NCBI GenBank assembly: GCA_025408425.1
Contig: JANXYX010000037.1
Coordinates: 1 to 64,000 of the forward strand
Source: Granulicella sp.
GTDB lineage: Bacteria > Acidobacteriota > Terriglobia > Terriglobales > Acidobacteriaceae
DNA: 64,000 nt
Direction: 5' to 3'
Part shown: positions 13,109 through 57,641 of the stretch, piece by piece
Position numbering within the stretch: the first letter of the stretch is position 1
Layout of the letters: each line of letters begins with the position of its first letter
Program-made: the position numbers and the translations under genes
Notes under the pieces: model-generated
Told to the model about the DNA's origin: nothing
The model's database searches: none
The model's input: the letters and a program-made list of their open reading frames with translations, nothing else

Positions 13109-14758
13109 TCAGGCGATGGCGGCGGTGACTAGTTGTTGGGCTTCGGTTTGGATTTGTTTCAGGTGGTCGGGGCCGCGGAAGGATTCGGCGTAGATTTTGT
13201 AGACGTCTTCGGTGCCGGAGGGGCGGGCGGCGAACCAGCCGTTTTCGGTGGTGACCTTGAGGCCGCCGATGCTGGCGTGGTTGCCAGGGGCTTCGGTGAG
13301 GATGGCGGTGATGGGTTCGCCGGCGAGTTGTTTGGCGGTGACCTGCGAGGGGGAGAGTTTGGCGAGCTTGGCCTTCTGGTCCTTGGTGGCTGCGGCGTCG
13401 ATGCGCTGGTAGGTGGGGCTGCCGTATTTGGCGGTGAGGTCGGCGTAGAGCTGGCCGGGGTCTTTGCCGGTGCGGGCGGTCATCTCGGCGGCGAGGAGGC
13501 CGGGGATAAGGCCGTCTTTGTCGGTGGTCCAGACGGAGCCGTTGCGGCGGAGGAATGTGGCACCGGCGGACTCTTCGCCGACGAAGCCGAGGGTGCCGTC
13601 GATGAGACCGTCTACGAACCACTTGAAGCCTACGGGGACCTCCATCATGGGGCGGTTGAGGCCTTTGGCTACGCGGTCGATGATGCTGGAGGAGACGAGG
13701 GTTTTGCCGATGCCGACGCTGGCGGACCAGGCGGGGCGGTGGGTGAAGAGGTACTGGATGCAGACGGCGAGGTAGTGATTGGGATTGAGGAGGCCGGTGG
13801 AGCGGGTGACGATGCCGTGGCGGTCGTGGTCGGTGTCGGCGGCCCAGGCGACGTCGAATTTGTCCTTGTTGGCGATCATGGAGGCCATGGCGTAGGGGCT
13901 GGAGCAGTCCATGCGGACTTTGCCGTCCCAGTCGCAGGTCATGAAGCGGAAGGTGGCGTCGACGTTGGGGTTGAGGATCTGGAAGGGGAGGTTGTATTTT
14001 TCGGCGATGCGTGGCCAGTAGTAGACACCGGCTCCGCCGAGAGGATCGACGGCGAGCTTGAGGGTGGTTCCAGCGAGGACGTCGAAGTCGATGACGTTGG
14101 CGAGGTCGTTGACGTATGCGGTGATGTAGTCGTGCCGATGGGTGGTGGAGGCGTGGAGGGCCTTGGTGTAGGGGATGATGCGTTTGATGGAGGCGGGGCC
14201 TTCGGCGATGAGGTCGTTGGCGCGGTTTTCGATCCACTTGGTGGCGGTGGTGTCTGCTGGGCCACCGTTGGGTGGGTTGTATTTGAAGCCGCCGTCTTCA
14301 GGAGGATTGTGGGAAGGAGTGATGACGATGCCGTCGGCTAGATGGGAGGTGCGGCCCGCGTTGTAAGTGAGGATGGCGTGGGAGAGGGCAGGCGTAGGGG
14401 TGTAGGCGAGTTGGTCATCGATGAAGGTATCGATGTTGTTGGCGGCGAGGACTTCGAGTGCGGTGGCGAAGGCGGGCTCGGAGAGGGCGTGGGTGTCCTG
14501 AGCGAGGAAGAGAGGGCCGCTGATGCCCTGGCCTTTGCGGTAGTCGCAGATGGCCTGGGTGATGGCGGCGATGTGGACCTCGTTGAAGGAGGTATGGAAG
14601 GCGCTGCCGCGATGTCCGGAGGTTCCGAAAGAGACGCGCTGGGCGGGAATGGCTGCGTCGGGACGGAGGGTGTAATAGGCAGTGATGAGGCGGGGAAGAT
14701 TGACGAGGGAGGCGGGGGACGGGAGTTGTCCGGGGGTGTTGGGGGACTGAGTGCTCAT
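13109..14758 (-). CDS. pgm: Phosphoglucomutase (alpha-D-glucose-phosphate-specific)
   Basis: Interconverts glucose 1-phosphate and glucose 6-phosphate, linking glycolysis to glycogen, trehalose and UDP-glucose synthesis. At 549 residues it is full length. The phosphoserine loop is TPSHNPPEDGGFKYN, the metal-binding loop is DTDHDRHG, the sugar-binding loop GEESAGA and the phosphate-binding end RPSGTEDVYKIY. AAGGA lies about ten bases upstream of the start. It stands alone on the minus strand. Confidence 0.95.
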   Translation of the reverse strand: MSTQSPNTPGQLPSPASLVNLPRLITAYYTLRPDAAIPAQRVSFGTSGHRGSAFHTSFNEVHIAAITQAICDYRKGQGISGPLFLAQDTHALSEPAFATALEVLAANNIDTFIDDQLAYTPTPALSHAILTYNAGRTSHLADGIVITPSHNPPEDGGFKYNPPNGGPADTTATKWIENRANDLIAEGPASIKRIIPYTKALHASTTHRHDYITAYVNDLANVIDFDVLAGTTLKLAVDPLGGAGVYYWPRIAEKYNLPFQILNPNVDATFRFMTCDWDGKVRMDCSSPYAMASMIANKDKFDVAWAADTDHDRHGIVTRSTGLLNPNHYLAVCIQYLFTHRPAWSASVGIGKTLVSSSIIDRVAKGLNRPMMEVPVGFKWFVDGLIDGTLGFVGEESAGATFLRRNGSVWTTDKDGLIPGLLAAEMTARTGKDPGQLYADLTAKYGSPTYQRIDAAATKDQKAKLAKLSPSQVTAKQLAGEPITAILTEAPGNHASIGGLKVTTENGWFAARPSGTEDVYKIYAESFRGPDHLKQIQTEAQQLVTAAIA

Positions 14759-15060: not shown

Positions 15061-18000
15061 ATGGGTCTGGTACGCAGGGTCTGGCCGCTGTGTGTGGGGC
15101 TAGTTGCGATGGTGGGGTTCGGTGTCCCAGCGATGGCGCTGCAGGCGACGCTGGTGGCAGATGCGCATGTGAACAGTGCGCTGCCGGCGGTGAATAGCGG
15201 GACAATCTCGAATCTCTATGTGGGTGCCGGATATTCGTCACTGGTGCAGTTTGATCTGAGTTTGCTGCCGGCGGGGACGACGGCGGCCCAGGTTTCGCGT
15301 GCAGTCCTGCGGGTGTATTGCAACCGGGTGGATACGGCTGGACTGGTGAGTGTGCAGCCAGTAAGCGGTGCGTGGGGAGAGTACAGCGTGACGTATGGAA
15401 CGCTGCCGGCTCTGGCGAGTGCGGTACAGGTGTTTCAGGTGGGTCAGGCGGGTGCCTACTTTGCCGTGGATGTGACGTTGCTGGTGCAGGGATGGGTGAG
15501 TGCTCCCACGACGAACAATGGATTGGCGCTGACTGCGGGGACGGCGGCGGTGCAGTTCGACAGCAAGGAGAATGACCTGACGGGGCATGCAGCGGAGTTG
15601 GATATTACGCTGACTTCGCAAGGGCCGATTGGGTTGACTGGTGCTCCTGGCGTGGCCGGGCCTGCGGGTGCAGCAGGTGCCATCGGTGCTACTGGGGCGA
15701 TGGGACCGTCCGGGCCTGCGGGGAGTTCGGTGGGGGGCGCGACGGGGAGCTACCAGGGGAGCTACCGGTTGGCTACGAGCTATGGGCTGGGCGACGTGGT
15801 GGAGTATCAGGGGTCGAGTTATGTTTCGCTGGGCGTTGGGAATTCAGGGAATGTTCCAGGTTCGAGTGCGGGATATTGGGGTTTGTTGGCGCAGGGCGGG
15901 ACCGGGCCGACCGGGCCTATGGGCGCCACCGGAGCTGCCGGAGTGGCTGGACCGGCGGGGCCTGTGGGCGCGGCGGGGCCTGCTGGGGTTGCCGGGCCAT
16001 CAGGCAGCCAGGGTTCGCCAGGGTTGGTGTATCAGGGGGCCTATGCATCTTCGACTAACTATGGTTTGGGGGATGTCGTGGTGTGGCAGGGGAGCAGCTA
16101 CAGCTCGTTAGTGGCGGCGAATGCGGGAAATACGCCGAGTCTTAGTCCGGGACAGTGGGGAGTGCTTACGTCGATTGGGCCTGTGGGCGCTACGGGCGCT
16201 GCTGGAGCGACTGGAGGGATGGGGCCTCAGGGTTTGCCCGGGCTTGTTGGGCCGAATGGGCCGCAGGGGCCACAAGGGTCGCAGGGGATTGCTGGGCAGG
16301 CTGGAGCCCAGGGACTGACTGGCGCGACAGGTGCGATGGGGCAGAGCGGGCCGATGGGGCCTCAGGGTGTTCCGGGGCCGGTGGGGATAACGTATCGGGG
16401 GTCGTATTTGTCTTCGACGAACTATGCGCTGGCGGACGGAGTGTCGTATGGCGGGGCAAGCTATGTTTCTCTGGTGGCGGGGAATCAGGGTAATGCTCCG
16501 GATGTGAGCCCGGCGGAGTGGTCGCTGTTTGCGGCTGCGGGTGGGGCTGGTGCCACTGGGCCAGCGGGGGCTACAGGAGCCCAGGGAGCAGCTGGGATGC
16601 AGGGTGTACAGGGTGTTGTGGGGGCGACGGGGCCGATGGGCGCTACGGGGCCTCAGGGGCCTGCGGTGGCGAACTACACGGGGAACTATTCGTCAGCGAC
16701 GAACTATGGGTTCCATGATGCGGTGAGCTACGGAGGCTCGACCTATGTTTCATTGGTTACGGGCAATGTGGGGAACACTCCGGATGTAAGTGGGGCTGAG
16801 TGGGCGGTGCTGGCGGCGCAGGGGCCTGCAGGACCGACGGGGGCGATTGGAGCACGGGGGCCGGCTGGTTCTGCGGGTGTTGCAGGTGTTGCCGGGGCGA
16901 TGGGGCCGCAAGGGCCCCCGGTGAGCTTTGTGGGGGGATGGCTGATTGGGAGCACGTACGGTGTGGGAGACGCTGTGAGCTATGGGGGCTCGAGCTACAT
17001 TGCGTTGGTGGGGAACGTGGGGAGGCAGCCTGATGTGAGCCCGGTGTATTGGGCGGTGTTGGCGGCGTCTGGGGCGGTGGGACCGACGGGAGCGACAGGG
17101 CCGACGGGATTGCAGGGGCCGAGTGGGTTTGCTGGGCCACAAGGGGTGCAAGGGCCTGCAGGACCTGCAGGGGGTGCCGGTGCGATGGGGTTGACTGGTG
17201 CAGCCGGGGTCGCGGGGCCGGTTGGGCCGATGGGTAGTGCGGGAGCGATGGGGCCTGCGGGGCTGGTGTATCGGGGAGCGTATTCGGCTGGAGTGAACTA
17301 TGGGCTGAATGATGCGGTGACGTTCCAGGGTGCAAGCTATATTTCGATGGCGGCAAGCAACGTGGGGAATGCTCCTGATGTGAGTGCGGGATATTGGAGC
17401 GTATTGGCGGCACAAGGGGCGGTGGGAGCAACGGGATTGACGGGTGCTACTGGTTCAGTTGGGCCGCAGGGGGCTATGGGCTCGGCTGGTGCTGTGGGGG
17501 CTGCAGGTCCTGTGGGAGTAGCGGGGATGAGTTATCGCGGGACGTGGGTTGCGGGTACTGGTTATGCGGTGAACGATGCGGTGCTTTTTGGCGGGACAAC
17601 GTATATTGCGACGGCTAGCAGTTCGGGGTTGCGTCCGGATTTGTATTCGGGAGCCTGGGGGGTGCTGGCGGCGCAAGGTGGTGCGGGAGCTACAGGCCCG
17701 GCCGGGGCAGCAGCCAGCGTGAGTGTCGGGACCGTGACGACGGGAGTGGCGGGAAGCGCGGCCACAGTGACGAACAGCGGGACGGGGAGTGCGGCGGTGT
17801 TGAACTTTACGATTCCGCAGGGCGCGGCGGGAACGAATGGCGGTGGTGGTGGGGCAGGTACGGCTTCTTTTCTGTCGATGTATCACGCGGTGTCGTTCAA
17901 TTTCAATTTCTATTCGGTGAACAATCCGAACTCGAGTGCGAGTGAAGGGGCTGCGGTGGTGACGTGGGTTCCGGCGGCTTGTACGGCGACGACGCTGACG

Positions 18001-18216
18001 GTTTTCTCGCAGCAATCGAATGCGATCACGGTGACTCTTCGTCAGGGGGCTCTAGGGAGCATGACGGACACGGTTCTGGCGTGTGTGGCTTCGAGCGGCG
18101 GGAGTTGTACGGTGACGGGGAGCGTTGCGGTGGCAGGGGGGAGCTTTCTGGATTTGAGCGTGAGCGGGGCGAGTGGCACGGCGGCTGGGGTGTGGACTGC
18201 AGTTGGGTGTAGCTGA
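15061..18216 (+). CDS. Large secreted collagen-like protein with seven carbohydrate-binding-like modules
   Basis: A 1051-residue protein. Signal peptide at 1-27 (VGLVAMVGFGVPAMA). Residues about 28-185 form a DNRLRE-type domain (ATLVADAHVNS...AVLRVYCN...GWV). From about 188 onward, runs of Gly-X-Y triplets (GPAGAAGAIGATGAMGPSGP type) alternate with seven modules of about 50 residues starting Y.G.Y....Y...D.V.Y.G..Y and ending W..LAA.G, like the ChiA/CBM5-12 fold. The last 150 residues are Gly/Ser/Thr-rich beta with three Cys and end in Cys-Ser, perhaps a trimer-nucleating head. ATG 15061 has AAGAGGA upstream. Likely a surface fibre or adhesin. Confidence 0.88.
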   Translation: MGLVRRVWPLCVGLVAMVGFGVPAMALQATLVADAHVNSALPAVNSGTISNLYVGAGYSSLVQFDLSLLPAGTTAAQVSRAVLRVYCNRVDTAGLVSVQPVSGAWGEYSVTYGTLPALASAVQVFQVGQAGAYFAVDVTLLVQGWVSAPTTNNGLALTAGTAAVQFDSKENDLTGHAAELDITLTSQGPIGLTGAPGVAGPAGAAGAIGATGAMGPSGPAGSSVGGATGSYQGSYRLATSYGLGDVVEYQGSSYVSLGVGNSGNVPGSSAGYWGLLAQGGTGPTGPMGATGAAGVAGPAGPVGAAGPAGVAGPSGSQGSPGLVYQGAYASSTNYGLGDVVVWQGSSYSSLVAANAGNTPSLSPGQWGVLTSIGPVGATGAAGATGGMGPQGLPGLVGPNGPQGPQGSQGIAGQAGAQGLTGATGAMGQSGPMGPQGVPGPVGITYRGSYLSSTNYALADGVSYGGASYVSLVAGNQGNAPDVSPAEWSLFAAAGGAGATGPAGATGAQGAAGMQGVQGVVGATGPMGATGPQGPAVANYTGNYSSATNYGFHDAVSYGGSTYVSLVTGNVGNTPDVSGAEWAVLAAQGPAGPTGAIGARGPAGSAGVAGVAGAMGPQGPPVSFVGGWLIGSTYGVGDAVSYGGSSYIALVGNVGRQPDVSPVYWAVLAASGAVGPTGATGPTGLQGPSGFAGPQGVQGPAGPAGGAGAMGLTGAAGVAGPVGPMGSAGAMGPAGLVYRGAYSAGVNYGLNDAVTFQGASYISMAASNVGNAPDVSAGYWSVLAAQGAVGATGLTGATGSVGPQGAMGSAGAVGAAGPVGVAGMSYRGTWVAGTGYAVNDAVLFGGTTYIATASSSGLRPDLYSGAWGVLAAQGGAGATGPAGAAASVSVGTVTTGVAGSAATVTNSGTGSAAVLNFTIPQGAAGTNGGGGGAGTASFLSMYHAVSFNFNFYSVNNPNSSASEGAAVVTWVPAACTATTLTVFSQQSNAITVTLRQGALGSMTDTVLACVASSGGSCTVTGSVAVAGGSFLDLSVSGASGTAAGVWTAVGCS
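15622..17710 (+). repeat. Coding repeat region: collagen blocks alternating with seven modules
   Basis: The seven modules begin near 15749, 16030, 16393, 16675, 16927, 17269 and 17533. Each is preceded and followed by Gly-X-Y blocks of roughly 25-55 residues. The DNA is GC-rich and internally repetitive (GGGGC(C/G)T-type units), so unequal crossing-over could change the module number. Confidence 0.8.
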
Positions 18217-18313
18217 ACTTTGTTGATTGGGACCGCGAGAGAGCCAAGGGCGCCCGTGAAAGGTTATGCTGGTGTGCGATTGGCATGACCAATTTGGAGC
18301 GAGGAACTCTCGA

Positions 18314-20233
18314 ATGATGATGCGATGGGGCGTTGGGCTGGTGGCGGTAGTGTTGGGCGCTGGACAGGTGGCGGCGGGTCAGGATCCAGTGGTGGTGAAG
18401 ATAGCGGATTCGGCTATGAAGGAGTTTCCGCAGGGAGTGGTGGCGACGGATAACCGTCCGGGAGCCTGGGGGTATACGGAAGGGGTGCTGCTGGATGGGA
18501 TGGCGGCGCAGTGGCATGCGACTGCGGACGGGGCGGAGTTTAAGTACATCAAGGAGTCGGTTGATCGATATGTAACGGAAGATGGAATAATCAAGGGATA
18601 CGGCGCTGACCTGCATAGCCTGGATGAGGTGGAGATGGGGCGGTCGGTCGTGCTGTTGTACCGGGTGACGCAGGAGGGGAAGTACTACAAGGCGGCGAAG
18701 TTCATTCATGAGCAGTTGGCGCTGCAGCCGCGTACTGCGAGTGGCGGGTACTGGCATAAGAAGATCTACCCGAACCAGATGTGGCTTGATAGTGCGTTTA
18801 TGGCGGAGCCTTTTAGGGCAGAGTATGCGGCCACGTTTCATGAACAGGGGGACTGGGACGATATTGCGAAGCAGTTGTTGCTGATGGATGTAAAGATGCG
18901 CGATGTGAAGACTGGCCTGATGCTGCATGGGTGGGACGAGTCGATGCAGATGCCGTGGGCTGACAAGTCCACTGGCTTGTCGCCGGAGGTGTGGTCGCGT
19001 GCGATGGGTTGGTATGCGATGGCGCTGGTGGATGTTTTGGACTGGATGCCCGTGGATCACCCGGAGCGGAAGGAACTGATCAGCGTTTTGAATAAGACGG
19101 CGGCGGCGATTGTGCGCTACCAGGACGCGGGGACGGGGCTTTGGTGGGAGGTGATGGACAAGGGAGGGAAGGCCGGGAACTTTACTGAGTCATCGGCGAG
19201 TTGCATGTTTGTGTATGCGCTGGCGAAGGGCGTGCGGATGGGGTATCTGCCGAAAGGGGATGAGGGCAATGCGCGGCGGGGGTGGGATGGGATAGTGAAG
19301 ACGTTCGTGAAGACGGAGCCGGATGGGATGGAGACGCTGACCGGAACGATTAAAGGTGCGGGGCTGGGTGGGACGCCGTATCGATCAGGGACGTATGAGT
19401 ACTACGTTGGCGAGAAAGTGATTTCAAACGACGGGAAGGGAATTGGAGCGTTCCTTATGGCGGGGAGCGAGATGGAGCAGGCTGCGACAGCAACGCTGGG
19501 ACTGGGCAAGACGGTTGTAGTGGATGCGTGGTTCAACTCGCAGACGCGGAAGAATGCTGCGGGACAGACAGAGCTCTTTCACTACAAGTGGGATGACGAT
19601 TCGAATAGCGGATTCGCGTTCTTTGGTCGGGCGTTCCAGCGGTATGGGGCGAGGCTGGATGAGGAGCAGTCTGCTCCTACGGCAGCGGACCTGAAGCGAG
19701 CAAAGGTTTATGTGATGGCTTCGCCGGATATTCCGATCAAGAATCCCGCGCCGCACTCTATGGACACGAAGAGCGGAGATGAGATTGAGGCCTGGGTGAA
19801 GGCGGGTGGAGTGCTGTTGCTGATGGAGAATGATGGGCCGAATGCAGAGTTTGAAAACTTCAATACGCTAAGCGAGCGATTTGGGATTCACTTCAATCCG
19901 GTGCTGCGGAACCATGTAGTGGAGAATGATTTTCCTGCAGGGACGGTGATCATTCCTGCAGGAACGGGAGTGTTTCAACACCCACACCAGGCTTACATGA
20001 AGGACACTTGCACGATTACGGTGTCGGGGCCAGCGAAGGCCGTGCTGATGGCAACGACCGAGCCGAAGAGCGATGTGATGATGGCTGTGGCTAAGGTGGG
20101 GAAGGGAACGGTGTATGCGGTGGTGGATCCTTGGTTCTACAACGAGTACACGGATCGGCGGAATAACCTGCCGGTGGAGTTCGACACGTTTGCTGCCGCG
20201 ATCGATCTGGCCGGGTGGGCGATACGGCAGTGA
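18314..20233 (+). CDS. GH105 unsaturated rhamnogalacturonyl hydrolase with C-terminal GATase-like domain
   Basis: A 639-residue secreted enzyme (signal VGLVAVVLGAGQVAAG). Residues about 20-385 form the (alpha/alpha)6 barrel of GH88/GH105, with the acidic motifs MWLDSAFMAEPF and HGWDES and the aromatic WSRAMGWYAMAL. Such enzymes remove the unsaturated uronic acid left by rhamnogalacturonan lyases. Residues about 450-639 look like a DUF4350 / glutamine-amidotransferase-like Rossmann domain (KVYVMASPDI..., EIEAWVKAGGVLLLMEND, KVGKGTVYAVVDPWFYNEY), a fusion also known in other GH105 proteins. Start at ATG 18314 (MMM) with GAGG upstream; the frame is open to 18266. Confidence 0.87.
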   Translation: MMMRWGVGLVAVVLGAGQVAAGQDPVVVKIADSAMKEFPQGVVATDNRPGAWGYTEGVLLDGMAAQWHATADGAEFKYIKESVDRYVTEDGIIKGYGADLHSLDEVEMGRSVVLLYRVTQEGKYYKAAKFIHEQLALQPRTASGGYWHKKIYPNQMWLDSAFMAEPFRAEYAATFHEQGDWDDIAKQLLLMDVKMRDVKTGLMLHGWDESMQMPWADKSTGLSPEVWSRAMGWYAMALVDVLDWMPVDHPERKELISVLNKTAAAIVRYQDAGTGLWWEVMDKGGKAGNFTESSASCMFVYALAKGVRMGYLPKGDEGNARRGWDGIVKTFVKTEPDGMETLTGTIKGAGLGGTPYRSGTYEYYVGEKVISNDGKGIGAFLMAGSEMEQAATATLGLGKTVVVDAWFNSQTRKNAAGQTELFHYKWDDDSNSGFAFFGRAFQRYGARLDEEQSAPTAADLKRAKVYVMASPDIPIKNPAPHSMDTKSGDEIEAWVKAGGVLLLMENDGPNAEFENFNTLSERFGIHFNPVLRNHVVENDFPAGTVIIPAGTGVFQHPHQAYMKDTCTITVSGPAKAVLMATTEPKSDVMMAVAKVGKGTVYAVVDPWFYNEYTDRRNNLPVEFDTFAAAIDLAGWAIRQ

Positions 20234-40553: not shown

Positions 40554-40638
40554 GTGGTTGATGTAGCGAATGACGAGACGTGGGTGGATGTATCAAAATT
40601 CACGGTGGCAGGTATGCTGCTGAGAGTACGTGCGAACT

Positions 40639-43600
40639 ATGCCCCGGACGCAATTGACGACTCTATCGAACCCGAAGAAAAAGACGAAGAAGATTGCGGA
40701 AGAAGTGCGGCCTCTGGAGGTTGAGAGGGAACGGTCCAAGGCTTCGCTCGAGCTGTTTCATCCGATCACAGCGAAGTGGTTCAGGGAAGTGTTTGACGGG
40801 CCAACGGCTCCGCAGGTGGAGGGGTGGCCGGCAATTGCACGGGGCGAGTCGACGCTGATTCTGGCACCGACGGGCACGGGCAAGACGCTAACGGCGTTTT
40901 TGTGGTGTCTCGACAAATTGATGATGCGGACGCCTGCGGATGCGGTGCGCGGGTGCCGTGTGGTTTATTTGTCGCCGCTTAAGGCGCTGGCGGTGGACGT
41001 GGAGCGGAATCTGCGGTCTCCGTTGGCAGGAATTGCGAATATGGCGCAGCGGCAAGGCGTCGATGTCCGGATGCCGGAGATCAGTGTGCGGACTGGGGAT
41101 ACTTCGCCGAAGGAGCGGGCGCGGTTTGCGCGGCATCCTGGGGACATTCTGATTACGACGCCGGAGTCTCTGTATCTGCTGCTGACGAGTGAGGCGGGGG
41201 AGAGGTTGCGGTCGGTCGAGACGGTGATCGTGGACGAGATTCATGCGCTGGTGCCTAGCAAGCGTGGAGCGCATCTGGCGCTGTCTCTAGAACGGCTGGA
41301 GGCGCTGGCGGGGCGGCGGATTCAGCGGATTGGATTGTCGGCTACGCAGCGGCCGCTGGAGGAGGTGGCACGGTTTCTGGGTGGAGCGGAGGCAGTGGGG
41401 GAGAAAAACGTAGCTAAAACTGTTACATATATGGCGCGGGCGGACGAGGTGGATGCGGAGATTGATAGCATCCTGACGGAGGTGGCTGGGGAGGAGTCGC
41501 TACAGGTCGAGACCGATGCTCCGCGGTATCGGCCGGTGACGGTGGTGAATGCGGGGGCGAAGAAGGTACTGGAGCTGAGGGTAGAGGTTCCGGTGGAGGA
41601 CATGGCGCGGCTGGGTGCGATTGACGAGCAGACGAGCGGGCCGGCGAGCCAAGGGCCGAAGCGGACTTCGATCTGGCAGAGTATTCATCCAAGGTTGCTG
41701 GAGATTATCCGCGAGCGGACTTCGACGCTGATATTTGTAAATGCTCGGCGTGTGGCGGAGCGGCTGGCGGGTGCGTTGAATGAACTGGCCGGTGAACCGA
41801 TTGCGAGGGCGCACCATGGTTCGCTGGCAGCCACGCAGCGGACGGAGATTGAAGAGCTGCTGAAGGCAGGGAAGATCAAGGCATTGGTGGCGACGAGTTC
41901 ACTGGAGTTGGGGATCGATATGGTGGCGATCGATCTGGTGATTCAGATTGAAGCTCCGCCAAGCGTAGCGAGTGGAATGCAGCGGATCGGGCGGGCGGGG
42001 CACCAGGTGGGAGCGCCTTCGTGCGGGATTATTTTTCCGAAGTATCGGGCGGATCTGATTGCGTGTGCAGCGGTGACGCGGGCGATGCACGAGGGTCATG
42101 TGGAGTCGACACGGTTTCTGCGGAATCCGCTGGACGTGCTGGCTCAGCAGGTGGTGGCGGTGATTGCGCATCCGCCGCTGAGTGTCGCGGATGCGGAGTT
42201 GAGGCGGAAGCATGCGACGGATGAAGAGGGGAGTCCGGGGATTTCGTACGAGGCATTGTTTGGGCTGGTGCGAGGGGCAGCGCCGTTTGCGGGGTTGGGG
42301 CGAGGGATGTTTGATGGGGTGCTGGATATGCTGGCGGGGCGGTATCCGTCGGACGAGTTTGCGGAGTTGCGACCTAGGATTACGTGGGACCGCACGAAGA
42401 ACTGGATTACGCCGCGGCAGGGGGTGAAGCGGATTGCGATTCTGAATGGCGGGACGATTCCTGATCGCGGGCTGTATGGGGTTTTTCTGGCGGGGTTGCA
42501 CAACAAGCCGGTGCGGGTGGGTGAGTTGGATGAAGAGATGGTGTTTGAGAGCCGGACGGGAGACACCTTTATTCTGGGGGCCTCGACGTGGCGGATTGAT
42601 GAGATTACACATGACCGGGTGCTGGTGACGCCGGCTCCGGGTGAGGCGGGGAAGATGCCGTTCTGGCATGGGGACCAGGCGGGGAGGCCGCTGGAGTTTG
42701 GGCGGCGGATTGGTGCGCTGGTGCGGGAGTTGCGCGAAGTGCCGCGGAATGTGGCAGTTACGCGGCTGGTGTTAGAGCATGACCTCCAGGAAGGGGCGGC
42801 GGAGAATTTGTTGCGGTATCTGGCGGACCAGGAGCTGGCTACGGTGGTGGTTCCGGATGACCGGAATGTTGTAATTGAACGGGTTAGGGATGAGTTGGGA
42901 GATTGGCGGGTGTGTGTGTTGACGCCGTTTGGGAGCAGGATTCATGCTCCGTGGGCGATGGCGATTACGGCAAAACTGCGTGCAAATCGTGGACACGATG
43001 TGGAGACTATGTGGTCAGAAGATGGCTTTGTGCTGCGTTTTCCAGAGACTGATGAACCGCCTGATGTGGAAGCGCTGATGCTGGAGCCGGAGGAGGCGGC
43101 GGAGTTGGTACTGCAGCAGTTGGGGGCGACGGCGCTGTTCGCGGCGAAGTTTCGAGAGAGTGCTTCGCGGGCTTTGTTGCTGCCGAGGAGGAGGGCGGAT
43201 GGGAGGACTCCGCTGTGGCAGCAGAGGAAGCGGGCGTATGACTTGTTGAGTGTGGCGAGCCGGTATGCGAGCTTTCCGATTTTGCTGGAGGCCTATCGCG
43301 AGTGTTTGCGGGATGTGTTCGATATGCCGGCGCTGATGGAGACTTTGCGTGCGATTGGGAACAAAAGTTTGCAGGTGCATACGGTGGATTCGCGGACGCC
43401 GAGTCCATTTGCGAGCGCACTGCTGTTCAGCTATGTGGCGAACTATATCTACGACGGGGATGCACCGCTGGCGGAGAGACGGGCGCAGGCGTTGTCGATC
43501 GATCAGGACCAGTTGCGGGAGTTGATGGGGGATGCGGATCTTCGCGAGCTGCTGGATATCAATGCGATCGAGGAGACGGAGGAGCAACTGCAGTGCGTGG

Positions 43601-45474
43601 TTGATCCGTACAAGGCGCGGACGATGGATGGTGTGCACGATCTGCTGCTGCGGCTGGGGGATTTGACTCGGGCAGATTTGTTGCGGCGATGTGTAACGGA
43701 AGTGGTTGCAGAGAGTGTTGTGAAGTTGATGCGTGCTCGGCGGGTGCTGGAGGTGCAGGTTGCGGGGGAGAAGCGGCTGATTGCGGTGGAGGATGCGGCG
43801 CGGTACCGAGATGCGCTGGGGGTTTCGTTGCCGCCGGGGTTGCCGGGGGCGTTTCTGGAGGATTCTCCGGAGGCGATGGTGGATCTGGTGAGGCGGTTTG
43901 CACGGACGAATGGACCATTTACTACGAACGATGTGGCGGCGCGGTTTGGTTTGCCTGCGGTAGGTGTGGAGGCGGTGTTGCAGCGGCTGGTGCAGGCGGG
44001 CCGGGTGGTGGAGGGTGGCTTCCGACCGGGTGGTATTCATCGCGAGTGGTGCGATGTGGAGGTGCTACGGGCGATTCGGAGAAAGTCACTGGCACGGTTA
44101 CGTAAAGAAGTTGAGCCAGTGGAGCAGCGGGTGCTGGCGAGACTGTTGACGCGGTGGCAGGGAGTGGTGCAGCCGCGGCGAGGGTTGGATGCTCTGTTGG
44201 ATGTGATTGAGAATCTGCAGGGCGCTCCACTGGCGGCTTCTGTGCTGGAGACGGAGATTTTGCCGGCGCGGGTGGTGGGGTATAAGAGTTCGGATCTGGA
44301 TATGTTGATTGCGGCGGGTGAGGTGGTTTGGGTGGGTTTCGATGCGATTGGGGAGCGGGATGGGCGGGTGGGGCTCTATCTGGCGGAGAAGCTGCCGGTG
44401 CTGTGGCAGGTGCAGGGGCCGGGACCTCGGGTGACGCTGGCGGAGAGGGAAGAGGCGAAGAGTGCGGCGGTTACGAAGGAGGATGAGATTGTTGCTTATC
44501 TGAAGGGGCGGGGGGCTTCGTTCTTTCAGGATTTGCATGATGGGATTGGTGGGGGTTATCCGGGGGAGACGCTGGATGCGCTGTGGGGCCTGGTGTGGAA
44601 GGGGATGGTGACGAATGATGGTATGGCGGCGCTGCGGGCTTATTGTGAGCGCCCGGCGGTGACATCACGGGGGAAGAAGGTGCATCGGCAGGGGCCCGGT
44701 TTCCGGTCGCGACGGACTACTCCACCTACGGGGCAAGGGAGGTGGGGATTGAATGCGGCGGTGTTTGCGAAGGGTGGGCCTGCGACTGCGTGGAGCGTTG
44801 CGATGGCGACGCAGTTGTTGACTCGGTATGGTGTGGTGTTTCGGGAGACGGCACATGCGGAGGGGTTGGTGGGTGGTTTCAGCGCGGTGTATGACGTGTT
44901 GAAGGCGATGGAGGAGAGTGGGAAGGTTCGGCGGGGGTACTTTGCAGCGGATCTGGGGGCGACGCAGTTTGCGATGCCGGCCGCGGTGGATTTGTTGCGG
45001 TCGTTGCGAGTGGAGAGGGAGGGCGAGAGGGGGGAGATGGTGATGCTGGCGGCGACTGATCCGGCGAATCCTTATGGGTCGCTGCTGCGGTGGCCGACGG
45101 GTGGGGATGCTGCTTCGTCGCTGACGCGGAGTGTTGGGGCGCGGGTGGTTTTGTGCGATGGGGCGCTGGTAGCTTATGTGCGACGAGGGAATCCGAATGT
45201 GCAGGTGTTTCTGCCGGAGGAGGAGCCCGGACGGGGGCAGGTGGCGAAGGCGCTGGCTGAATTTTTTGTGGCGCGGGTGCAGGGGGATCGGGAGGGGGAT
45301 GATGCTGCGGGGCGGGCGGGGATGTTGATCGCTACGGTGAATGGGGTGGGGGTGGCGGAGAGTGTGATGGCGAGGGTGCTGCTGGACGCTGGGTTTGTGG
45401 CTGGGGCTATGGGGTTTAATGTGCGGCGGGGATTGCCTCATTTACCGGGGCATGGGGTGAGGCCGCATGACTGA
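40639..45474 (+). CDS. lhr: Large DEAD/DEAH ATP-dependent helicase, Lhr
   Basis: A roughly 1611-residue superfamily 2 helicase of the long Lhr type, involved in DNA repair (and in RNA metabolism in some hosts). Walker A is APTGTGKT, motif II DEIH, motif III LSATQ, motif V TSSLELGID and motif VI QRIGRAGHQ, all within about 500 residues, followed by the winged-helix/Lhr-core region and the long C-terminal domain (to about 1600) of bacterial Lhr. ATG 40639 is used; a GTG three codons earlier is possible and neither has a clear ribosome site. It stands alone. Confidence 0.93.
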   Translation: MPRTQLTTLSNPKKKTKKIAEEVRPLEVERERSKASLELFHPITAKWFREVFDGPTAPQVEGWPAIARGESTLILAPTGTGKTLTAFLWCLDKLMMRTPADAVRGCRVVYLSPLKALAVDVERNLRSPLAGIANMAQRQGVDVRMPEISVRTGDTSPKERARFARHPGDILITTPESLYLLLTSEAGERLRSVETVIVDEIHALVPSKRGAHLALSLERLEALAGRRIQRIGLSATQRPLEEVARFLGGAEAVGEKNVAKTVTYMARADEVDAEIDSILTEVAGEESLQVETDAPRYRPVTVVNAGAKKVLELRVEVPVEDMARLGAIDEQTSGPASQGPKRTSIWQSIHPRLLEIIRERTSTLIFVNARRVAERLAGALNELAGEPIARAHHGSLAATQRTEIEELLKAGKIKALVATSSLELGIDMVAIDLVIQIEAPPSVASGMQRIGRAGHQVGAPSCGIIFPKYRADLIACAAVTRAMHEGHVESTRFLRNPLDVLAQQVVAVIAHPPLSVADAELRRKHATDEEGSPGISYEALFGLVRGAAPFAGLGRGMFDGVLDMLAGRYPSDEFAELRPRITWDRTKNWITPRQGVKRIAILNGGTIPDRGLYGVFLAGLHNKPVRVGELDEEMVFESRTGDTFILGASTWRIDEITHDRVLVTPAPGEAGKMPFWHGDQAGRPLEFGRRIGALVRELREVPRNVAVTRLVLEHDLQEGAAENLLRYLADQELATVVVPDDRNVVIERVRDELGDWRVCVLTPFGSRIHAPWAMAITAKLRANRGHDVETMWSEDGFVLRFPETDEPPDVEALMLEPEEAAELVLQQLGATALFAAKFRESASRALLLPRRRADGRTPLWQQRKRAYDLLSVASRYASFPILLEAYRECLRDVFDMPALMETLRAIGNKSLQVHTVDSRTPSPFASALLFSYVANYIYDGDAPLAERRAQALSIDQDQLRELMGDADLRELLDINAIEETEEQLQCVVDPYKARTMDGVHDLLLRLGDLTRADLLRRCVTEVVAESVVKLMRARRVLEVQVAGEKRLIAVEDAARYRDALGVSLPPGLPGAFLEDSPEAMVDLVRRFARTNGPFTTNDVAARFGLPAVGVEAVLQRLVQAGRVVEGGFRPGGIHREWCDVEVLRAIRRKSLARLRKEVEPVEQRVLARLLTRWQGVVQPRRGLDALLDVIENLQGAPLAASVLETEILPARVVGYKSSDLDMLIAAGEVVWVGFDAIGERDGRVGLYLAEKLPVLWQVQGPGPRVTLAEREEAKSAAVTKEDEIVAYLKGRGASFFQDLHDGIGGGYPGETLDALWGLVWKGMVTNDGMAALRAYCERPAVTSRGKKVHRQGPGFRSRRTTPPTGQGRWGLNAAVFAKGGPATAWSVAMATQLLTRYGVVFRETAHAEGLVGGFSAVYDVLKAMEESGKVRRGYFAADLGATQFAMPAAVDLLRSLRVEREGERGEMVMLAATDPANPYGSLLRWPTGGDAASSLTRSVGARVVLCDGALVAYVRRGNPNVQVFLPEEEPGRGQVAKALAEFFVARVQGDREGDDAAGRAGMLIATVNGVGVAESVMARVLLDAGFVAGAMGFNVRRGLPHLPGHGVRPHD

Positions 45475-55277: not shown

Positions 55278-57641
55278 TTACCAGTTGAGTGTTATGGACT
55301 GTTCTCCTGCATGCAGGGGGAGGGTTTTGTTGTGCCAGCTTAGTTCGCCGGGCAAGCCGTCTGGCAAGGTGATAACTGCAATCCAGCCGTTGTTCTGACG
55401 GGTGTAGTGGACTTCGACGAGTCCCCTGGGTGTGGGCATGGTCGCGGTTGCGTGTTGGAGATCGCCGAGATGAGGAGTGATTCGCACGGTCTTGAATCCC
55501 GGGGAGGCTGGAGCGATGCCGGCGACGAGAGTGAGCAGATCGAAGGTGGGGTGGGCGCTCCATGCGTGAGAGTCGGAGCGGGTGGGTTCGGGCGTTTCGG
55601 CCCAAGTGGAGAGGCCTAGTTGGAGCATTTTGCGCCAAGGGTCGAGTTGTGCGATGTAGTCGTTTCCGAGGCCGGCGTGGACCATGGCGCGGGCGAGGTA
55701 GAAGCGGAAGTAGTAGCTGGCGGGGGCGATGGTTGGGGCTGAGGCTGAGGGGTTGAGGATGCTGGTCATGACGGCGTGCTGTTTGTCGTGGGGGATGACA
55801 TCGAGCAGGACGGCGAGGGAGTTGGCTTGCTGGCTGAAGGTCTTTTTGGTGGGCGTGTCGGCGAGCAGGCCGGTGTGTTCGTCCCAGTTGAGGCGAAGAA
55901 GGGCGGCTGAGGCTCGGGCGGATTGCTCGCGATAGCGGGTGGCGCGGTCTTTTTCGCCGAGGCGGTCTTCGAGTTCGGCGGCGTTCTGGAGGGCTTCGAT
56001 GAATTGGAGGGTGATCGCTGAGGAGCCGCCATCGGCTTCTTGGGGTGGGACACCATCTTTGTAGAGGCTGGGGCTCCAGTCGACGAAGGGCCACCACTCG
56101 ATGTGGTTGAGGAGGCCGTCGGGGCGCTGGCGTGCGGTGAACCAATCGAGAGTTCCGCGGGTGCTGGGCAGGAGGGACTGGACGAAGGCGGGATCGTCGC
56201 GGTAGATGGAGAAGTCATGGAGCATGCCGACCCAGAGGAGCGAGAAGGGTGGGATGACTTGCGTAAGGTTGGAGGGGTAGCGGCTTTGGGTGAGGCCGTC
56301 GGTGAGGAGCGAGTCTCGGTAGGCGAGCATGGCCTGGCGACCGAGGCGGTCGTCGCCGGTGATGCCGTAGGAGATGAGGGCCTGGATGCGGGTGTCGCCG
56401 ACGTACTGGAGCTGCTCCCAGTATGGGGTGTCCATGTAGGTTTCGTGGGAGCAGAGTTGGGCAGTGCGCCAGCCTACATCCCAGATGCGGGAGAGTTCGG
56501 GATCGTTGCTTTCGAAGTGGGCTACCTGGGAGAACGGGTAGGCGGTGTAGAAGGCGGTGAGGCTGGAGATGGTCAGTGGGGTGTCGGTGGTGGTGACGTC
56601 GAGCTGGAGGTAGCGCCAGGTGCGCCACCAGAGAGTGCGGTAGGTGCGGGAGTCGCCGTCGGCGGAGATGTGATCGCGGATGCCTTGGATGTGGCGGTCG
56701 GCGACTTCGTTGCGATTGCCTTTTTGACCTTTGGCGTCGTAGAGGGCTTCGGCGTAGGTGAGGTCGATGGAGGCGTCTTTGCCGCCGTTGACGTTGAGCG
56801 AAGGGTAGGCGGTGGTGAGGGTTTCGCGGTCGAGCAGGATGGTGACGTGAGAGTTGGCGGGGATGGTGAGGGGCTTTTCGAGCGAGGTGGCTCCGGCGGC
56901 GGGGAGTCCGGTGAGACGGACGACCTGGCCGGCGGAGATAGGCTTGTATTGCATCGGGGGCAGGGTATCTTTTTCAAGCATCCAGTGGGTGGGGCTGTCT
57001 TGTGCGCCGGTGGGTGCGGCCTGGCCGAGGGGGTGGGCTTGTGACCAGTGGCCTGAGGTGGTGGCGGTGTCCCAGGCCCAATTGATTTTATGGCCGTCCA
57101 TGACTTCTGCCGGGCCTGCGGCGTAGTAGCCTTTCGGACGATTTCGATCGAGGGTGCGGCCTGTTTCGTGGCTGACTTGCCACGTGCCTCCGGTGTTGAT
57201 GGAGGAGTTCTGCGGGTCTTCGGCGGCGAGGAGGAAGGCGGTCTGTGAGCTCATCTGGGAGACGGCTGCGGAGGAGCCGAAGTTCCAGACGATGGCTGCG
57301 ATGTTGTTGTCGCCGGAGTGGAGGTAGGGGGCGATGTCGAAGGTCTCGTAGCGCCAGTGGTGGACGTCGCCGAGAGCGGGGCCTGCGCCGACGCGCTGGC
57401 CGTTGACGTGGAGTTCGAAACGGGTGTCGGCGCTGACGTTGACGACGAGTTGCGCGGGTACTGCTGGGAGCGAGAGGGATTTGCGGAAGTAGACAACGTC
57501 GTAGTCGCGGGCTGGGCCGTCGGGCGCGGCGATCCACTGGGCGGGCCACTTTTGGGGTGTGGCGGCTGGGAGGATATTGGTGCTGGCGAGGAGGAAGGCA
57601 GTGATGAGGGAGAGATAGATTTTTTTAGAGGTGATGCTCAT
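55278..57641 (-). CDS. Secreted alpha-L-rhamnosidase, GH78
   Basis: A 787-residue exported enzyme (signal LSLITAFLLASTNILPA) releasing rhamnose from glycosides or rhamnogalacturonan. N-terminal beta domains (WPAQWIAAP, FELHVNGQRVGAGPALGDVHHWRYETFD) lead to the (alpha/alpha)6 barrel from about 400: YMDTPYWEQLQYVGDTR, WWPFVDWSP, and the C-terminal LLTLVAGIAPASPGFKTVRITPHLG. The acidic residues in DTPYWEQLQYVGD correspond to the GH78 catalytic region. It is transcribed alone, convergent with alaC. Rhamnose release fits the GH105 enzyme at 18 kb. Confidence 0.92.
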   Translation of the reverse strand: MSITSKKIYLSLITAFLLASTNILPAATPQKWPAQWIAAPDGPARDYDVVYFRKSLSLPAVPAQLVVNVSADTRFELHVNGQRVGAGPALGDVHHWRYETFDIAPYLHSGDNNIAAIVWNFGSSAAVSQMSSQTAFLLAAEDPQNSSINTGGTWQVSHETGRTLDRNRPKGYYAAGPAEVMDGHKINWAWDTATTSGHWSQAHPLGQAAPTGAQDSPTHWMLEKDTLPPMQYKPISAGQVVRLTGLPAAGATSLEKPLTIPANSHVTILLDRETLTTAYPSLNVNGGKDASIDLTYAEALYDAKGQKGNRNEVADRHIQGIRDHISADGDSRTYRTLWWRTWRYLQLDVTTTDTPLTISSLTAFYTAYPFSQVAHFESNDPELSRIWDVGWRTAQLCSHETYMDTPYWEQLQYVGDTRIQALISYGITGDDRLGRQAMLAYRDSLLTDGLTQSRYPSNLTQVIPPFSLLWVGMLHDFSIYRDDPAFVQSLLPSTRGTLDWFTARQRPDGLLNHIEWWPFVDWSPSLYKDGVPPQEADGGSSAITLQFIEALQNAAELEDRLGEKDRATRYREQSARASAALLRLNWDEHTGLLADTPTKKTFSQQANSLAVLLDVIPHDKQHAVMTSILNPSASAPTIAPASYYFRFYLARAMVHAGLGNDYIAQLDPWRKMLQLGLSTWAETPEPTRSDSHAWSAHPTFDLLTLVAGIAPASPGFKTVRITPHLGDLQHATATMPTPRGLVEVHYTRQNNGWIAVITLPDGLPGELSWHNKTLPLHAGEQSITLNW

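Follow-up and report, generated by a model that had tools for sequence, protein, structure and literature searches.

A collagen-like protein of Granulicella sp. with seven modules of predicted CBM5/12 fold between its Gly-X-Y blocks

Domain order of the collagen-like gene

Within a 64,000-nucleotide stretch of Granulicella sp. DNA (the window, to whose positions all coordinates refer), a single open reading frame (ORF) on the + strand, running from an ATG at 15061 to a stop codon that ends at 18216, encodes a protein of 1051 amino acids (aa) in which collagen-like Gly-X-Y blocks alternate with seven small modules. An inspection of the letters without database searches (the sequence-only reading) had proposed this alternation, framed by a DNRLRE-type head and a Cys-bearing C-terminal beta domain, and each of these parts was confirmed. 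Pfam places Collagen in 8 stretches (E 1.2e-37) and CBM_5_12 (PF02839) in 6 (whole-protein E 5.1e-15, 55.7 bits against a cut-off of 26.2), and the mapping of blocks and modules along the ORF puts the seven module starts at aa 231, 324, 445, 539, 623, 737, and 825 (Table 1). The head matches NCBIfam DNRLRE_dom (NF033679; 79.1 bits, cut-off 34) as well as Pfam CBM96 (PF24517; aa 29-172, E 1.1e-15, 58.3 bits, cut-off 26), while the C-terminal domain contains 4 Cys and is predicted to form a jelly roll. The Gly-X-Y region is flanked by non-collagen ends, as in bacterial collagen-like proteins, and a search of the genome (4.23 Mb, 99.67% completeness) found neither Pfam Collagen nor CBM_5_12 in any other ORF.

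Table 1. Coordinates of the collagen-like gene, its parts, and its neighbours in the window
Feature	Position	Strand	Evidence or remark
Phosphoglucomutase gene	13109..14758	-	Divergent neighbour marking the orthologous site
Whole gene, collagen-like protein	15061..18216	+	ORF, Pfam
Probable Sec signal peptide	15061..15141	+	By inspection: basic start, hydrophobic core, A-x-A; N-termini of relatives similar
N-terminal DNRLRE / CBM96 head	15145..15609	+	Pfam, NCBIfam
Gly-X-Y block 1, 12 triplets	15622..15729	+	Stretch before first module varies between species
Module 1 (CBM5/12 fold)	15751..15894	+	
Gly-X-Y block 2, 15 triplets	15895..16029	+	
Module 2	16030..16173	+	
Gly-X-Y block 3, 24 triplets	16177..16392	+	
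Module 3	16393..16536	+	
Gly-X-Y block 4, 14 triplets	16540..16665	+	
Module 4	16675..16818	+	
Gly-X-Y block 5, 11 triplets	16822..16920	+	
Module 5	16927..17067	+	
Gly-X-Y block 6, 22 triplets	17071..17268	+	
Module 6	17269..17412	+	The modelled module
Gly-X-Y block 7, 13 triplets	17416..17532	+	
Module 7	17533..17673	+	
Short Gly-X-Y block, 4 triplets	17677..17712	+	
Conserved VGTVTTG...LNFTIPQG linker and short Gly-rich end	17713..17856	+	PHROGs of unknown function; minor tail proteins weakly
C-terminal beta domain	17857..18213	+	Predicted jelly roll; TNF/C1q-like top matches
GH88/GH105-family hydrolase gene	18266..20233	+	PF07470, E 3.8e-99; next door, not obligately linked

Module fold and the sugar-contact position

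Modules 2-7 share 34-58% identity with module 1, and residues G3, Y11, D15, V17, G21, Y24, G33, P36, and W43 are invariant in all seven. Taken singly, the modules fall under the Pfam cut-off (24.6 bits for the best and 20.3 for module 6, against 26.2), which only their sum passes; at E 0.1 or better, PF02839 matches every one of the 38 aligned modules, among which are those of the window. Structure prediction of a module had been put forward as a check, and the model of module 6, built from an alignment with 37 further modules, reached a predicted local distance difference test score (pLDDT) of 97. In VIA-align comparisons, whose rows were drawn solely from Foldseek matches and in which a Z below 8 may mean a mere common arrangement, the module superposed on chitinase C (1wvv; Z 8.8, root-mean-square deviation (rmsd) 1.1 A) and on residues 138-184 of the tail fibre of cyanophage A-1(L) (8kec; Z 8.8, rmsd 0.8 A, 33% identity), with further matches to ChiA1 (1ed7; Z 5.2) and, more weakly, to residues 75-118 of the phage 7-7-1 fibre (Z 5.7).

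In ChiA1, Trp656, Tyr662, Tyr670, Tyr675, and Trp696 are described as the core aromatics, and the surface residue Trp687 is reported to stack on the sugar and to play a major role in ligand binding (PMC3701571). The corresponding columns, assigned by profile alignment, were counted in 352 modules, taken from the window and from 60 fetched loci (40 of the genus and 20 others, hand-picked from the listed best matches with at most two per genome and not a random sample). The five core columns were aromatic in 345/345, 351/351, 333/351, and 350/350 modules and, as W, in 349/349. The Trp687 column, in contrast, reads N, N, N, N, R, N, and L in modules 1-7, contains W in none of 350 bacterial modules (N in 213), and has W in only 1 of 226 viral ones. 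Additional surface aromatics, a Trp neighbour and a third residue, are described for CBM5 (PMC8449059), and from its distance to the core Trp we infer that module column 40 is the counterpart of CjCBM5 Tyr296; columns 33, 34, and 40 are without W, Y, or F in 341/352 modules (gaps counted as none). Judged from these alignments, the CBM5/12 fold appears to be kept and the classic sugar contact gone, so that the earlier likening of the modules to small chitin- or cellulose-binding domains holds for the fold and fails at the binding Trp. Binding of chitin or cellulose at the standard site was rejected on the evidence of the Trp687 column.

The same counts bear on the proposal that the protein is a multivalent polysaccharide-binding fibre, in which the modules would bind a glycan at a site without Trp and the many weak sites of a trimer would provide avidity. 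The retained fold with its five core aromatics, the CBM96 head, the occurrence of up to 14 modules in one ORF, and a possible new site around N31 (kept in 305/348 bacterial modules) and N34 (213/350) would all suit such a fibre, whereas the missing Trp687 and the scarcity of aromatics at columns 33, 34, and 40 speak against it. Since the residue with which related chitin-binding domains hold sugar is missing from the modules, and in view also of the evidence from phage fibres and neighbouring genes given below, we regard a sugar-binding fibre as somewhat unlikely.

Length and composition of the Gly-X-Y blocks

Of 36 syntenic orthologues in a single frame, comprising the window copy and 35 other loci, 24 were used to compare linker lengths, namely those in which the third module was recognisable by its DG motif. 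These 24 are the window, 21 loci of the genus, and L164 and L165 from another genus; L132 and L133 have an identical block 3 linker and are therefore not independent. In the 12 left out (L139, L152, L154, L155, L157, L166, L170, L171, L172, L173, L174, and L175), raw lengths include a linker of 73 or 74 residues in seven, of 100 in L139, and of 102 in L157, and L152, L154, and L155 are without any linker of the 73/74 or 100/102 kind. Also excluded were the end-cut L162 and the split-frame loci L125, L149, L151, and L160, in which the module ORF is divided over two overlapping frames, possibly through frameshifts or assembly errors.

The block 3 linker measures 73 residues in 23/24 orthologues and 46 in one, the block 4 linker 45 or 46 residues in 24/24, and the block 5 linker 36 residues in 19/24, with 100, 46, or 115 in the other five. 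At the modal length, mean pairwise identity at X/Y positions is 0.60, 0.49, and 0.49 for blocks 3, 4, and 5, and the lowest pairwise values are 0.27, 0.27, and 0.25, with about 0.20 expected by chance given the residues that make up the first linker. A tree of the 24 taxa was built from head, modules, and C-terminus, its head part including a few block 1 Gly-X-Y triplets in some proteins. On this tree, parsimony assigned 1, 2, and 3 length changes to blocks 3, 4, and 5. Substitutions at X/Y and flanking positions numbered 222, 128, and 125, compared with 0, 0, and 2 changes at Gly positions, a difference that marks the Gly-X-Y pattern as no chance feature. In the central blocks, then, length has stayed more constant than sequence. 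Ratios of nonsynonymous to synonymous divergence (dN/dS), calculated for equal-length blocks only, were 0.21/0.92 for modules and 0.28/1.18 for collagen against L128, and 0.23/1.06 and 0.30/1.32 against L136.

The sequence-only reading had expected binding modules at fixed spacing. Within the molecule the spacing is unequal, with 11 to 24 triplets between modules; near-constancy applies to the length of particular blocks compared between species. The remaining blocks drift by single triplets (42, 45, 48; 67, 70; 40, 43) or change upon loss of a module, and over the window and the 60 loci linker lengths modulo 3 are 1 in 140, 0 in 106, and 2 in 6 cases (n=252). A geometric linker period of 27 residues (46, 73, 100) was considered and rejected: the 100-residue linkers of L147 hold two GAQGLTG motifs 27 residues apart, and these paired motifs, read by eye, suggest duplication or unequal exchange. 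L147 (G020) has 14 modules and L166 (G243) has 11, and both apparently repeat a larger unit consisting of a module, a linker of 73 or 100, a module, and a linker of 46.

The constancy of the central blocks could be explained by shared ancestry and rarely tolerated insertions and deletions in a plain collagen-like adhesin, an explanation that is compatible with the fibre proposed below. Only changes by multiples of 9 nucleotides preserve both the frame and the Gly-X-Y pattern, the drift of the other blocks and their changes with a lost module make the contrast one of degree, and the 46/73/100 series resembles duplication or loss of 27 residues. Less easily accommodated is the stretch between the head motif and the first module, which ranges from 52 to 130 residues and underwent 12 length changes by parsimony, whereas block 3 underwent 1 (p 0.003 in a two-sided binomial test assuming a common rate). 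Not all proteins begin at the same module, which inflates this contrast in part, since gain or loss of first modules contributes to it. Five orthologues that carry the 36-residue linker and all begin two modules ahead of the anchored third module nevertheless differ in this first stretch (59, 80, 71, 70, and 78 residues), whereas their block 3 linker is 73 in every case. Overall, we consider shared ancestry a real possibility, though short of an even one.

Phage relatives, genomic setting, and the proposed fibre

Based on its sequence, the protein appears to work like a collagen-type fibre and to share its modules with phage tail fibres. PHROG 5073, a tail fibre, matched the whole protein at E 5.8e-131 and a single module at 4.4e-7; these fibres have the same modules and collagen blocks, and the collagen-module-collagen-module order was found in 13 of 83 module-bearing viral ORFs (from the best 80 of 117 viral loci). 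With low-complexity filtering, a tblastn search of named phages using the whole protein as query gave 3 records. The PHROG 5073 fibres come from viral contigs, whereas the Granulicella protein is encoded by a host gene and combines a secretion-type N-terminus and a DNRLRE head with a conserved host site.

The trimeric short fibre of cyanophage A-1(L), gp33, has a joint domain (residues 111-215) that is reported to bind the baseplate wedges and a separate cell-wall-binding domain (PMC10966104). The stretch superposed on our module belongs to the joint and not to the cell-wall-binding domain, which argues against a polysaccharide-binding role; the two systems differ in that the A-1(L) joint binds baseplate wedges, and the word collagen is absent from the main text of that paper. 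Residues 1-120 of the phage 7-7-1 long fibre are described as its baseplate anchor (PMC12796354), and if the matched chain is the long fibre, as its residue numbers suggest, the module match would sit in this anchoring part. Tal proteins of streptococcal and lactococcal phages are described as predicted trimers with collagen-like linkers and three-stranded domains of about 60 residues, a domain likened to a junction module and repeated 10 times in BK5-T (PMC9437275, PMC9692632). In the Tal extensions of TP-778L and BK5-T these small beta domains alternate with the collagen-like linkers in up to 10 repeats, much the plan seen here; compared by description and not by sequence, they differ as parts of phage adhesion devices, in linkers described as variable in length, and in a three-stranded domain likened to half an FnIII and a junction module instead of CBM5/12. 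The phage-fibre matches favour a joint role for the modules without proving it.

Since a similar plan has been predicted for phage Tal proteins, the Granulicella architecture is a variant and not new in kind. No description of this bacterial architecture was found in the open-access literature, most subscription journals lying outside the scope of the search, which is not proof of absence. Lcl, Scl1/SclA, and Scl2/SclB likewise have a Gly-X-Y region with non-collagen ends, but the Granulicella protein stays far below the cut-offs of the NCBIfam Lcl, SclA, and SclB equivalogs (105.4, 86.6, and 103 bits against 500, 400, and 325) and differs by its interleaved modules and almost complete lack of charged X/Y residues. 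By inspection, no LPXTG motif was seen at the C-terminus; PclA of Streptococcus pneumoniae, as described, has such a motif and only one copy of the domain in common. The E. coli prophage proteins EPclA and EPclB share collagen blocks with trimerising end domains, and EPclB has two collagen domains with a repeat between them; they differ by their coiled-coil and phage-fibre end domains, and their collagen domains are reported to vary in length (PMC3368898).

In Foldseek searches of the PDB with the C-terminal domain model, the first 15 rows were proteins of the TNF and C1q families (best E 2.0e-3), and VIA-align gave Z scores of 9.1 for XepA, 8.1 for the phage 7-7-1 fibre (residues 470-581), 8.0 for a phage KP1 baseplate protein, 7.6 for 4-1BBL and APRIL, and 7.5 for the F-BclA tip domain and C1q. 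If the 7-7-1 chain is indeed the long fibre, its matched residues fall in the triple jelly roll described at 473-587 of that trimeric protein (PMC12796354). Giant-virus and phage collagen proteins topped the list in a viral structure library (best E 2.8e-6), matches that rest on parts of the model, as the top rows had rmsd values of 12-25 A or more. Sequence searches gave less: nothing better than E 0.15 was obtained against the PDB with a C-terminal profile, Pfam returned no family at E 1 for the C-terminal stretch and linker of the window copy and single stray matches only in 19 relatives, and the C-terminal domain alone had no match among the PHROGs. A trimerising cap is a reasonable reading of the modelled domain, and a sugar-binding cap is possible. 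Trimers have been demonstrated for collagen proteins of phages (PMC3368898).

The module profile was detected in 54 of the 62 genus genomes, counting the one that holds the window, in 48 of 200 genomes of the family (8 of the 48 from the same genus), and, at E 1e-6, in 39 of 396 genomes drawn from the phylum (20 of the 39 from the same genus). The 14 named loci include Edaphobacter, Granulicella, Terriglobus, Acidobacteriaceae, one Acidobacteria gp6, and one titled Rhodanobacteraceae. Phosphoglucomutase lies divergently upstream in 31/40 genus loci and 9/20 others, and a GH88/GH105 relative lies downstream on the same strand in 15/40 and 4/20. Neighbours lie out of view on the upstream side of L163 and L179 and on the downstream side of L162, and were counted there as not found. 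Further neighbours in the window are a histidine kinase and a response regulator. These synteny counts indicate that the collagen gene has been inherited at this site, with the hydrolase as an optional neighbour. The hydrolase noted as a GH105 directly after the gene is indeed there in the window, as a member of GH88/GH105, and is not obligate, and its role as a fixed partner was rejected. For the polysaccharide-binding fibre, its presence beside some loci is a supporting point that is offset by the 25/40 genus loci where it was not found, one of which (L162) ends before the site.

The window also encodes an alpha-L-rhamnosidase-like protein (55278-57641, -), which together with the GH88/GH105 hydrolase is compatible with the use of plant cell-wall pectin, and a Lhr-type helicase of 1614 residues (40630-45474, +).

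A phage tail fibre or prophage remnant would account for the strong PHROG 5073 match and for the viral ORFs with the same alternation. The secretion-type N-terminus, the host-type neighbours (phosphoglucomutase, GH88/GH105, histidine kinase, and response regulator), and the recurrence of phosphoglucomutase upstream point the other way, and we set prophage origin aside as highly improbable on these grounds, no dedicated search for phage genes having been made in the flanks.

Our preferred explanation, held with about even confidence from the sequence features and models, is a secreted, probably homotrimeric bead-on-rod fibre of this soil bacterium, whose modules act as structural joints or as binders of some other ligand. 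The C-terminal jelly-roll domain would hold three chains together, the Gly-X-Y blocks would wind into triple-helical rods of near-constant central length, and the CBM5/12-derived modules would form knots of three small domains between the rods. The modules would most likely be structural, locking the chain register or serving as joints or knobs in the manner of same-fold modules from trimeric phage fibres; any ligand they have would not be held by the classic Trp, and the DNRLRE head would be the likelier surface-binding end. Such a fibre may function in an extracellular matrix or in adhesion.

Several observations weigh against this explanation. Pro is present in just 43/115 triplets and charged residues occupy 1 in 230 X/Y positions, in comparison with Scl collagens, in which polar or charged residues are described as abundant (PMC8968730), so that the stability of a triple helix is uncertain. 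The C-terminal model has a mean pLDDT of 62.7, with residues 81-150 in blocks at 73-89; its PDB structure matches never reach E 0.001, and the sugar-binding CBM36 (Z 7.4-7.6) stands level with the TNF and C1q rows, which also adds to the case for a polysaccharide-binding fibre. Regarding the modules, chitinase C ties with the phage fibre as best match, a ligand could be held by another kind of site without Trp687, and the same Tal fibres also bear true sugar-binding modules, named as carbohydrate-binding modules in the streptococcal-phage paper and therefore a further point for a glycan ligand. Besides, the length constancy may reflect few tolerated insertions and deletions and not a ruler.

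A more specific and, in our view, unlikely form of the fibre would be a phage-fibre-like design turned into a secreted bacterial fibre, in which the Trp-less CBM5/12 modules serve as trimeric clasps. Central collagen blocks selected for length would be the rulers that set exact distances between clasps, and these distances would persist across species and even in other genera although the collagen sequence in between is largely randomised. Chitin binding should not be read from a CBM5/12 annotation alone when it occurs in a fibre. Should the central blocks prove to be rulers, the protein would provide a naturally occurring collagen nearly devoid of charge, with rods of set length and recurring knots, and it would offer a test of chain register across interruptions as well as a source of programmable fibre parts.

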